Source of the DNA: Bacteroidia bacterium
GTDB lineage: Bacteria; Bacteroidota; Bacteroidia; SpSt-205
Direction: 5' to 3'
Assembly (NCBI GenBank): GCA_026414975.1
Contig: JAOAHZ010000001.1
Location: forward strand, 62,001 to 126,000
DNA: 64,000 nt
This document shows, one piece after another, positions 9,763 through 41,045 of this stretch. The translations under genes were made by a program, and so were the position numbers. The notes below the pieces were generated by a model that was given only the letters and a program-made list of their open reading frames with translations, did not search any database and was not told where the DNA came from. How positions within the stretch are numbered: the first letter of the stretch is position 1; each line of letters starts with the position of its first letter.

Positions 9763-9766
9763 TTTA

Positions 9767-9774
9767 CAAATAAA
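9767..9774 (-). promoter_or_regulatory. -7 promoter box of the GlcNAc kinase operon
   Basis: Minus-strand TTTATTTG (one mismatch to TAnnTTTG), then TAAA, then the GTG at 9762. The 4-nt spacing supports the GTG start and a leaderless mRNA. Confidence 0.6.
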
Positions 9775-9788
9775 CGCGGTTTGCTTCG

Positions 9789-9796
9789 TATCTTTG
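9789..9796 (+). promoter_or_regulatory. -7 promoter box of the TetR-aminotransferase operon
   Basis: TATCTTTG, then CACC, then ATG at 9801. It is a perfect box with 4-nt spacing. It lies only 14 nt from the oppositely directed box of the kinase operon, and the whole divergent gap is 38 nt. Confidence 0.75.
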
Positions 9797-9800
9797 CACC

Positions 9801-21708: not shown

Positions 21709-22264
21709 GTCTCGCCTTCTGCTGAAGCTCCCCCTCCTAACCGTAGAAGAACTTACCCATGAAAAACGACTTATTGTTCATAGGGGGGTTTTTAGTGCTG
21801 TATGTCTCGTTTTCTACCTTCCTTCTGGAGAAGAATACTTTCTCACTGTACGGCAGTACCGTACCGCTGCTTCTGCTGTGTTTTATGAACATCCAGCTGG
21901 TATGATAGAGCCCTCAGAAGACCCCATAGAAGGGGCTCTCCGTGAGCTGGCAGAAGAAACCGGCTGGCTTCTCACTAAAGACGATATCATACCCCTCACA
22001 CCTCACAGCCTCTACCCCTCGCCAGCTATATGGCGAGAAGAAGGCTACTTCTTTGCAGCTCGCCTTCAGGTCCCCAAACCCCTCATAGACTCATACCAAG
22101 CGGACCCAATCCGAGAAACAAAAGAGGAACAGCTCCGTTTAGCGGCTATTCCGAAAGAAAAACTGCCTCAGCTCACACGCAACCTCCAGACTATAGCGCA
22201 TACATTCCTATACTATGCCCATTTCGGTGCTCCTGACGGAAAGCTACCATCCCTTTTTGGTTGA
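21695..22264 (+). CDS. Nudix hydrolase (ADP-ribose pyrophosphatase-like)
   Basis: A 189-residue Nudix enzyme with a complete box GMIEPSEDPIEGALRELAEE followed by TGW (about residues 69-91, pattern G-x5-E-x7-REL-x-EE-x-G-U). Conserved YPSPAIWREEGYFF after the box is typical of ADP-ribose or nucleotide-sugar pyrophosphatases. The ATG overlaps the DUF502 gene by 14 nt and the 3' end overlaps the dehydrogenase gene by up to 50 nt. The exact substrate is not predictable. Confidence 0.85.
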   Translation: MGLPESRLLLKLPLLTVEELTHEKRLIVHRGVFSAVCLVFYLPSGEEYFLTVRQYRTAASAVFYEHPAGMIEPSEDPIEGALRELAEETGWLLTKDDIIPLTPHSLYPSPAIWREEGYFFAARLQVPKPLIDSYQADPIRETKEEQLRLAAIPKEKLPQLTRNLQTIAHTFLYYAHFGAPDGKLPSLFG

Positions 22265-23186
22265 GAGCTTGCGTCAGCACCCTACGATACATCTAACGCA
22301 TATTGAGAATCCTTCACCGGCGCTACTCTACGACGCCATTTCAGAAGCAGAAGTTTGGATCATGCGAGGGACGATTGCGGTAACGGAGGCGCTGCTGGAG
22401 AAAGCCCATCGGTTACAGCTCATTATTCGGGCGGGCTCAGGGGTAGATCACATAGAGAAAGAAGCTCTTAAGCGGCGCCGTATCAAGCTATACAGTACCC
22501 CTCATGTTAATGCTCTCCCCGTTGCTGAATATGTTCTGACTGCCCTACTAATGCTATCGCGACGATTCTTGATTGCTCATCACCACCTAAAGGAATCGGG
22601 CAGATGGCTTCGTCGAAACAGCATGGGTCGCGAGCTGGGGTCTCTGACGGTGGGGATTATAGGTTTCGGGCAGAACGGAAGTCGTACCGCTTACCTTCTT
22701 GCAGCTTTGGGCGCCCGAGTACTGGCTTACGATAAATACAAAGGGGGATTTGGCGGATTTGGGATCAGGGAAACGACGCTTGAGGAGATTTTCGCAGAAG
22801 CCGATGTCCTTTCCCTCCATATACCTCTGACCACCGAAACAAAGGGCTTAGTGAATGCGGACTTCCTGAGGCGTTTCCAGCGTCCAGTAGCTCTAATTAA
22901 CGCAGCTCGGGGGGAGATCGTAGAGCTTTCGGCTATCTTAGAAGCTTTATTAGCAGGACGGCTGTGGGGAGTCGCATTAGACACTCTACCCTATGAACCA
23001 CCAGAACGCTTAGCCCCCCCAGATTATGCAGTCTGGGAGCAGCTCAGACGCCACCCCGCCGTGCTGCTTACGCCTCATATAGCCGGTCTGACTGAGGAAA
23101 GCGAGTTAAGACTCGCTCGAGCGGTGCTGACCCTTCTGGAAAGTTGGCTGCACCGCCAATCCGACCCCTATAGCGATAAAGTATAA
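22215..23186 (+). CDS. D-isomer 2-hydroxyacid dehydrogenase (phosphoglycerate dehydrogenase-like)
   Basis: A 323-residue NAD-dependent dehydrogenase. The coenzyme motif is GIIGFGQNG, the catalytic Arg is in NAARGEIV, the Glu in DTLPYEPP and the His in LTPHIAG. The N-terminal RAGSGVDHI is the substrate-domain segment. It lacks the C-terminal ACT domain of large SerA enzymes. It could make 3-phosphohydroxypyruvate or act on another 2-hydroxyacid. The ATG at 22215 lies within the Nudix gene; GTG at 22227 is an alternative. The last 81 nt overlap the convergent membrane-protein gene. Confidence 0.85.
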   Translation: MPISVLLTESYHPFLVESLRQHPTIHLTHIENPSPALLYDAISEAEVWIMRGTIAVTEALLEKAHRLQLIIRAGSGVDHIEKEALKRRRIKLYSTPHVNALPVAEYVLTALLMLSRRFLIAHHHLKESGRWLRRNSMGRELGSLTVGIIGFGQNGSRTAYLLAALGARVLAYDKYKGGFGGFGIRETTLEEIFAEADVLSLHIPLTTETKGLVNADFLRRFQRPVALINAARGEIVELSAILEALLAGRLWGVALDTLPYEPPERLAPPDYAVWEQLRRHPAVLLTPHIAGLTEESELRLARAVLTLLESWLHRQSDPYSDKV

Positions 23187-24341
23187 GCCGTATAGCCTTT
23201 GCCGCGCTAAGGTTCCCCAAAAAGGCACTGCCATCGCAATAACGCCTACGATGAAGGTGCCCCCCAGGATTAGAAGGATCGCCCGCAGGGTCCACTGCGC
23301 CCGGGCCGCCCAGTAGACTCCCAAGCCTGCCAAAACCCACACCTCAACCATATAAAAGAGCGGTAAAATCTTCTTGACTTGTCCGGGAAAAGGGCCAAGG
23401 AGTCCATAGGGTATCGCTTTGAGCCACCCCATAAGACTGCCCCAGAAGCTCGGTTCATAAGCAAGCTGAAATACACTACCCTCTACCACCTCTGGATGTA
23501 TCCGAGGGTCTAATGCTTCCGTCCGATAGGTATAACACCAAGGGCCGATAACTTTCCCTAATAAAACAATGCTGACACCGACTACCAGGAGAAGAAGCCA
23601 GCGACTGTTCCAGCGATAGAGGGCGCCCATGACCACTGCAATAGGTAAAGCCTCTGGTCGCAGGAAAGCAAGCAGAAGCAGCGCAGCTGCTCCGCCCATA
23701 TCCTTGATCGAATGAACCGAAGCAACCCAAGCCGTCCCATATAAGAGTAAAGGGATAGCCAGAGTGTCTCTCAGCGCCCCGGAGGTCCAGACCAGAGCAC
23801 TGGGCATAAGGAACCAGACTATCCAAAACCTCTCGGGTAGCGCGCCTACCCTCTGCCAACGGCGGTAAGCAGCATACCCTAAAAGCCCTCCAGCGAGGGC
23901 CATGAGCCCTTGAAGCCCGTAATATCCTCCGCCTGCCGCAAGGTATAGAGGTACCAGCAAGCGATAAAAGAAGTAGTTGCTGGGCTCACTCCATTCATAA
24001 TCATAGCCGTATAAGCGTATATCTCGGAAAAAAATCTCCCACCCGCGAGCCTCCCATGACGAAGAAAACTCTCGGAAAAGGAGAGCCAACCCATCCGCTG
24101 GAGCTGTGCCTAAGTAATAAGCAAGTCGTCCCGCCGTTAGGTATGCCTTTAGAATGTCGCCATGGCAATAGTAGTTGGCGTATAGCCACCCTACCCCCCA
24201 ACCAGCTAATACCTTGACTATCAAGACAAAGTACAGCCAGAAAGGCGCACGGTGGTATTCTATGCGATACCCTATGTAGCCCAACCAGAAGCCTACTAAA
24301 ACAAACCCCAAACCTTCTTGTAAAGGCGAGAGAGTAACCAT
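23106..24341 (-). CDS. Polytopic membrane protein of unknown function
   Basis: A 411-residue protein with about ten hydrophobic helices and few soluble loops. It resembles the uncharacterised multi-span proteins of Bacteroidota that sit near polysaccharide or glycosyltransferase genes, but no catalytic motif is clear. The ATG at 24341 lies 5 nt from an AACCTTTG box. It diverges from the small TPR gene with only 26 nt between starts. Its 3' end runs 81 nt under the dehydrogenase gene. Confidence 0.7.
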   Translation of the reverse strand: MVTLSPLQEGLGFVLVGFWLGYIGYRIEYHRAPFWLYFVLIVKVLAGWGVGWLYANYYCHGDILKAYLTAGRLAYYLGTAPADGLALLFREFSSSWEARGWEIFFRDIRLYGYDYEWSEPSNYFFYRLLVPLYLAAGGGYYGLQGLMALAGGLLGYAAYRRWQRVGALPERFWIVWFLMPSALVWTSGALRDTLAIPLLLYGTAWVASVHSIKDMGGAAALLLLAFLRPEALPIAVVMGALYRWNSRWLLLLVVGVSIVLLGKVIGPWCYTYRTEALDPRIHPEVVEGSVFQLAYEPSFWGSLMGWLKAIPYGLLGPFPGQVKKILPLFYMVEVWVLAGLGVYWAARAQWTLRAILLILGGTFIVGVIAMAVPFWGTLARQRLYGLYFIAIGVGLAVQPTFQKGQHRSSES

Positions 24342-24346
24342 GTAGT

Positions 24347-24354
24347 CAAAGGTT
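24347..24354 (-). promoter_or_regulatory. -7 promoter box of the membrane protein
   Basis: Minus-strand AACCTTTG (one mismatch), then 5 nt, then ATG at 24341. It is separated by a single base from the opposite box at 24356. Confidence 0.5.
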
Positions 24355-24355
24355 G

Positions 24356-24363
24356 TATCTTTC
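24356..24363 (+). promoter_or_regulatory. -7 promoter box of the TPR protein
   Basis: TATCTTTC (one mismatch at the last base), then CACC, then ATG at 24368. The 4-nt spacing identifies this ATG as the start instead of a TTG 15 nt upstream. Confidence 0.55.
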
Positions 24364-24367
24364 CACC

Positions 24368-24691
24368 ATGGATAGGGAGAGAGAGCTAAGAGCTCGCATG
24401 CAGATGGACGAATCAGACCCGTTTTGGGCCCATACCTTGGGGGTATACTTAGCCGGACAGCAGCGCTGGTCTGAAGCGGAACAGGCCTTCAAAGAGGCTC
24501 TACGGCGTTCACCCACCTATTATGCGACTTATTATCAGTTGGGGTTGCTATATGAGAACCTCGGTCGCGAGCCAGAAGCTATAGAAGCTTTCCGAGAAGG
24601 ACACCGCCTAGCCATGGAAGCCAGAGACCTAAGACTCTTAAGCGACTTCCGCATGAAGCTAAGTCTGTACCTGGGCATGGATGAAGCGTGA
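24368..24691 (+). CDS. Small TPR protein
   Basis: A 107-residue soluble helical protein. Residues about 18-85 hold two tetratricopeptide repeats (WSEAEQAFKEALRRSPTYY and the next, PEAIEAFREGHRLA), which are protein-binding modules. No signal peptide is visible. It stands alone between a divergent membrane gene and the convergent amidase gene. No specific partner is evident. Confidence 0.78.
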   Translation: MDRERELRARMQMDESDPFWAHTLGVYLAGQQRWSEAEQAFKEALRRSPTYYATYYQLGLLYENLGREPEAIEAFREGHRLAMEARDLRLLSDFRMKLSLYLGMDEA

Positions 24692-40985: not shown

Positions 40986-40989
40986 GCAG

Positions 40990-40997
40990 CAAAAATA
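40990..40997 (-). promoter_or_regulatory. -7 promoter box of the rhomboid operon
   Basis: Minus-strand TATTTTTG, then CTGC, then GTG at 40985. It is a perfect box with 4-nt spacing before a GTG. Confidence 0.75.
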
Positions 40998-41029
40998 GGC
41001 GGCTTCTGCTGGATGAGAACAAGTTTTTC

Positions 41030-41037
41030 TATTTTCG
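41030..41037 (+). promoter_or_regulatory. Possible -7 box of the DUF2795 gene
   Basis: TATTTTCG (one mismatch), 8 nt before the ATG at 41046, predicting a leader of a few nt. Confidence 0.5.
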
Positions 41038-41045
41038 CGGGCGGT

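Follow-up and report, generated by a model that had tools for sequence, protein, structure and literature searches.

Divergent transcription from one short segment is known from the bidirectional promoters of E. coli (Warman et al.), whose -10 elements are common to both directions or overlap through symmetry; the two starts are commonly 18 bp apart, separations of 10 and 23 bp being also common (PMC12825309). That paper reports that all five promoters tested are transcribed too weakly at basal level for polymerases to compete, and that the divergent RNA is repressed only when one side is substantially activated. In Bacteroidetes, the promoters of the primary sigma factor carry a -7 box, TAnnTTTG (PMC6847099, PMC7366714, PMC9723704). 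In Flavobacterium johnsoniae this box, written TAHHTTTG, spans -12 to -5, a distance of 4-5 nt to the start site marks probable promoters, and no clear -33 element is seen (PMC6847099). Leaders are the rule in F. johnsoniae (87% over 10 nt; PMC6847099); only about 3.7% of 5' UTRs are shorter than 10 nt in B. thetaiotaomicron and 5.5% are leaderless in F. psychrophilum (PMC7366714, PMC9723704). Leaderless genes of Actinobacteria and Deinococcus-Thermus have a -10-type box, TAnnnT, about 10-12 bp before the start codon (PMC3160421). The same survey finds leaderless genes in one of 37 Bacteroidetes/Chlorobi genomes (2.4% of that genome's genes) by a method that sees only Pribnow-like boxes, and a comparative paper states that many leaderless mRNAs had been reported for the Bacteroidetes phylum (PMC5397173). 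Each of these elements is known by itself: leaderless genes, the -7 boxes of Bacteroidetes, and bidirectional promoters. In the open-licence literature, most subscription papers lying outside it, no description was found of leaderless transcription as the main mode in Bacteroidetes/Bacteroidota, nor, in the same literature, of a Bacteroidia family combining boxes at leaderless distance with double promoters of 24-31 bp.

The gap between a membrane-protein gene and a TPR gene was analysed in the window, i.e., the whole stretch of 64,000 nucleotides (Table 1). It probably contains two back-to-back leaderless promoters of the primary sigma factor, with no dedicated switch. The locus would be an unexceptional case of a head-to-head arrangement of leaderless promoters that extends across the lineage. 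As in the E. coli type (PMC12825309), divergent starts lie in one short segment and the polymerase would take one orientation at a time, which here is a steric deduction. The differences are: (i) separate and asymmetric -7 boxes, one per strand, with a single base between them and no shared or overlapping -10 element; (ii) predicted transcription starts 27 bp apart; (iii) two transcripts predicted to be leaderless. The matrix learned genome-wide agrees with the Bacteroidetes box and, with the same preference at the free positions, disfavours G at both of them. The locus shares with the leaderless genes of Actinobacteria and Deinococcus-Thermus a -10-type box close to the start codon, the sequence of the box being different.

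Table 1. Features of the divergent gap, its two genes and the other divergent gaps in the window.
Feature	Positions	Strand	Remarks
Intergenic gap with both promoter cores	24342..24367	.	26 bp, read directly
-7-like box AACCTTTG, membrane-protein gene	24347..24354 (read 24354-24347)	-	5 nt upstream of ATG
-7-like box TATCTTTC, TPR gene	24356..24363	+	4 nt upstream of ATG
411-aa hydrophobic protein, probably multi-pass membrane	23106..24341	-	Predicted leaderless start
107-aa TPR protein	24368..24691	+	Predicted leaderless start; family orthologues begin at same residue
Second tight divergent gap in window, 38 bp	9763..9800		TTTATTTG (-) and TATCTTTG (+), each 4 nt from its start
Third divergent gap in window, 60 bp	40986..41045		TATTTTTG (-, 4 nt) and TATTTTCG (+, 8 nt)

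The two gene starts and their spacing, as given by the sequence-only reading, are correct and can be read directly, the ATG codons being at 24341-24339 (minus) and 24368-24370 (plus). The two divergent boxes that it placed one base apart are present, though each has one mismatch to TAnnTTTG; with the matrix learned from the own genome, AACCTTTG scores 7.6 bits and TATCTTTC 8.7 bits. In the interval that begins 160 bp upstream of either gene and ends 10 bp into it, no other site reaches 5 bits. The same reading had put the -33 contact of each promoter within the opposite gene. This stands for the positions, since 24374 and 24335 are inside it and the upstream promoter DNA is thus coding DNA of the other gene, yet the genome shows no recognisable -33 motif: between -40 and -20, none was enriched in the genes with a box at 4 nt (32 in the own genome, G000, and 33 in G005, of the same genus). 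A -33 TTTG element is not strictly defining for Bacteroidetes primary-sigma promoters, because it is also hard to see in F. johnsoniae.

The distance between box and start codon was examined independently of gene calls, by sweeping TAnnTTTG-N(k)-ATG through 444 kb of G000, 400 kb of G005 and 200 kb each of two outgroup samples of the same class, G047 and G052. A sharp peak is obtained at k=4, with 38 sites in G000 and 48 in G005; in G000 each of the spacings k=3 and 5-12 gives 4 to 13 sites, and about 5 at spacings of at least 8. No peak at k=4 is seen in G047 or G052. Using an 8-bp matrix refined on unit-leading genes, a box of at least 6 bits is located 2-9 nt upstream of the start in 68 of 129 unit-leading genes (G000) and 62 of 124 (G005), compared with 2-7 and 0-14, respectively, in equal-sized control windows farther upstream. 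Thus about half of the unit-leading genes have a box at leaderless distance, unlike in the Bacteroidetes studied so far. Combined with the published spacing from box to start site, a box 4-5 nt before the ATG would place the start of transcription at the start codon. From this position of the boxes we infer leaderless starts, and both mRNAs of the locus should be leaderless; this is the main inference, and it is absent from the sequence-only reading.

The bias was then counted in whole genomes as the ratio of TAnnTTTG-N4-ATG to the N12 form, for 12 genomes of the family of the window and 48 others of the class. The ratio is 3.2-9.7 in all 12 family genomes and has a median of 1.1 in the 48 others, three of which are within the range of the family (G020, 4.6; G030, 4.4; G028, 3.6). 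G012, of the same order and a different family, has a ratio of 1.4. The N4 bias is strong in the family and weak or absent in most other members of the class, i.e., it is graded and not exclusive.

Divergent genes are tightly packed in the same genomes. Gaps of 60 bp or less separate 19 of 39 divergent pairs in G000 and 22 of 42 in G005, versus 1 of 22 in G047 and 0 of 20 in G052; a few called gaps are negative or near zero, probably from miscalled starts. Both boxes are present in 14 of the 39 pairs (G000), 13 of the 42 (G005), 0 of the 22 (G047) and 1 of the 20 (G052). The locus itself is not among the 14, because the script began the TPR gene at 24398. Gaps of 25-60 bp between divergent genes, boxed on both strands, recur in G000 and G005, and are almost lacking in the G047 and G052 samples. 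A strict double pattern (perfect boxes, N4 on both sides and 0-20 bp between them), which the locus does not match, occurs 35 times in 11 of the 12 family genomes, the exception being G001, which is incomplete, and 6 times in 4 of the 48 others; the reversed control gives 0 sites. One strict site, in G006, has abutting boxes and a gap of 24 bp, which is the minimum expected for two non-overlapping leaderless promoters of 12 bp.

These observations can be combined as follows. The gap would hold two independent promoters of the main Bacteroidota sigma factor, placed back to back in a minimal space, each consisting essentially of a -7 box 4-5 nt before the start codon. Transcription would begin at, or within one base of, the A of the ATG and give an mRNA without 5' leader, to be translated as such. 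Divergent genes would need only about 24-31 bp between them, because the family sets many promoters directly against genes. Polymerase footprints make the simultaneous occupation of the gap by two polymerases sterically implausible. On this steric basis, each loading would serve a single orientation, and the two genes would be fired at different times. Such time-sharing would allow both genes to be on in the same cell, with interference only if one promoter were strongly activated.

The closeness of the boxes had suggested mutually exclusive expression of the two genes, and a dedicated switch, in which overlapping promoters force this exclusivity, can be invoked: with boxes one base apart joint binding of two polymerases is implausible, and the gap is 26 bp in three species. 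The comparison of relatives leads to another conclusion. Only 4 of the 12 family genomes have the membrane-protein gene opposite the TPR gene, with a gap of 26 bp in G000, G004 and G002 and of 31 bp in G010 (GTG to ATG). The conservation of the gap, proposed as a check, is seen for its length in G004 and G002; across the family the pairing is not kept. In five others (G001, G005, G007, G009, G011) the membrane gene is opposite a ChlI-like gene, presumably YifB; the G005 copy matches Pfam Mg_chelatase at 6.9e-99, and the copies of G001, G007, G009 and G011 were assigned by their common N-terminus. This ChlI/YifB-like gene is 27-29 bp from the membrane gene in G001, G005 and G009, the distance in G011 being 77 bp. 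The start chosen by the script for G007 is an in-frame TTG at 18 bp, which lies upstream of the ATG found in other genomes. Neither partner is found in the 120 bp scanned upstream in G003, G006 and G008. The ChlI/YifB partner is also that of the outgroup genus, G011, which makes the pairing with the TPR gene probably the more recent of the two. This turnover of partners is evidence against selection for a switch between the membrane-protein gene and the TPR gene. Moreover, comparable gaps are common in G000 and G005, the arrangement being a common by-product of leaderless promoters, and at basal level the bidirectional promoters of E. coli are active in both directions with no competition between them (PMC12825309). 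From the pattern of partner conservation, mutual exclusivity is not retained as best reading, and a dedicated switch is very unlikely.

It could also be proposed that only one of the genes has its own promoter in the gap, the other box being a chance match and its gene being read from elsewhere. Both boxes are indeed imperfect. The box of the TPR gene reaches 6 bits in 6 of 11 genomes; it is weak in G002 (where the 26-bp gap is kept), G005, G008 and G010, and missing in G006. The membrane-gene box, on its side, is at least 6 bits in 9 of 12 genomes, five of these having a perfect TAnnTTTG; the G010 box AAACTTTA, 5 nt before the GTG, was judged by eye and is not included in this count. However, boxes of at least 6 bits are present at both genes even where these are not neighbours (membrane gene: G001, G005, G007, G008, G009, G011; TPR gene: G003, G007, G009, G011). 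Chance co-occurrence is at most a few per 10^5 stretches: two boxes at such distances in a 26-bp geometry are found 12 times over the 443,480 start positions sampled in the own genome, where part of these hits are probably genuine, and 10 times in a first-order Markov simulation of 1 Mb. A single promoter is therefore given little credit.

Conservation of the boxes is modestly above that of the coding flanks. In the alignment of three genomes, invariant columns are 13 of 16 in the boxes versus 45 of 95 in the flanks (p=0.015); with four genomes the values are 11 of 16 and 38 of 95, which is marginal (p=0.054). An ungapped comparison of three genomes gives no excess in the boxes (4/17), because the G002 boxes are shifted by one base.

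Finally, the box near the start could be a translation signal, i.e., a Kozak-like element within an ordinary leader, instead of a promoter. Shine-Dalgarno sites are missing in Bacteroidetes, and F. johnsoniae is described as tuning translation via mRNA structure and base identities (PMC6847099). In the genomes studied here no Shine-Dalgarno excess is observed either (9 of 305 genes versus 12 at the control position), and none in any of G000, G005, G047 and G052. For the 3' end of the 16S rRNA, searched as an anti-Shine-Dalgarno check, no 16S was returned in G000, G003, G005, G009 and G010, controls being positive in 9 of 14 genomes. Against a translation signal, the motif is identical to the sigma -7 box, avoidance of G at the free positions included. 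The box also marks genes that lead units: at 8 bits, a near box is found in 56 of 129 unit-leading versus 24 of 176 operon-internal genes of G000 (p=8e-9). It substitutes for upstream boxes as well, since a second box 10-59 nt upstream accompanies 2 of 56 leading genes with a near box versus 17 of 73 without (G000), and 0 of 56 versus 19 of 68 (G005), which is what one promoter per unit predicts; this pattern is not seen in G047 and G052. At the locus, 26 bp are too few for a promoter plus a leader unless the promoter is inside the other gene, where no box of at least 5 bits exists within 160 bp. A purely translational role is highly improbable.

With two leaderless promoters retained as the preferred reading, a wider proposal is rather probable in our estimation: in this uncultured Bacteroidia family leaderless transcription would be the main mode, the -7 box having slid onto the start codon, and at double promoters of 24-31 bp each loading polymerase would have to choose a direction, so that many gene pairs would be coupled with no regulator involved. 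The model Bacteroidetes are described as mostly leadered. If the proposal is true, the Shine-Dalgarno-free translation of the phylum can shift to leaderless starts. In the family, polymerase competition at minimal divergent promoters could be tested on many natural pairs, and the position of the box could serve as a start-codon rule for annotating these genomes.

Gene calls were made with a crude custom script, the list of open reading frames also gives an earlier TTG candidate at 24353, and the starts at the locus were compared with those of orthologues. For the TPR gene, an ATG or GTG is at aligned residue 1 in 9 of 10 family orthologues, and in G010 an ATG is one codon earlier; the start at 24368 is preferred over the 24398 of the script because orthologues agree. 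The membrane protein has orthologues in all 11 other family genomes, 10 of which have an ATG or GTG at residue 1. The protein alignment used 10 of 12 orthologues, G010 and G011 being left out. An EpsG-like match of the membrane protein is weak and under the Pfam cut-off; it appears in 4 of the 10 orthologues scanned, at best with 9.5e-5, and a comparison with solved structures gave no relative. A scan of named genomes with the TPR protein gave 18 loci, i.e., one family member, Bacteroidia bacterium SKYB95, and 17 more distant TPR proteins.

Over 81 bp (23106-23186), the membrane-protein gene overlaps a convergent gene for a 2-hydroxyacid dehydrogenase (22215-23186) at the 3' end of the latter, and a convergent, overlapping dehydrogenase-like frame also adjoins the membrane gene among the relatives listed. 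In several family genomes without the head-to-head arrangement (loci L020-L025), the gene after the TPR gene is short, and the protein that it encodes has a conserved, NAFGxRxGxSxYQYRTPYAQF-like start in the six-frame listing. In G000 a convergent amidase/CUB gene is located downstream of the TPR gene, in place of this short gene.

Raised counts of TAnnTTTG-N4-ATG are observed as well in the Bacteroidia genomes G020, G028, G030, G031 and G051. This suggests independent or partial shifts to leaderless starts in other Bacteroidia lineages. G031 contains three perfect head-to-head double sites.
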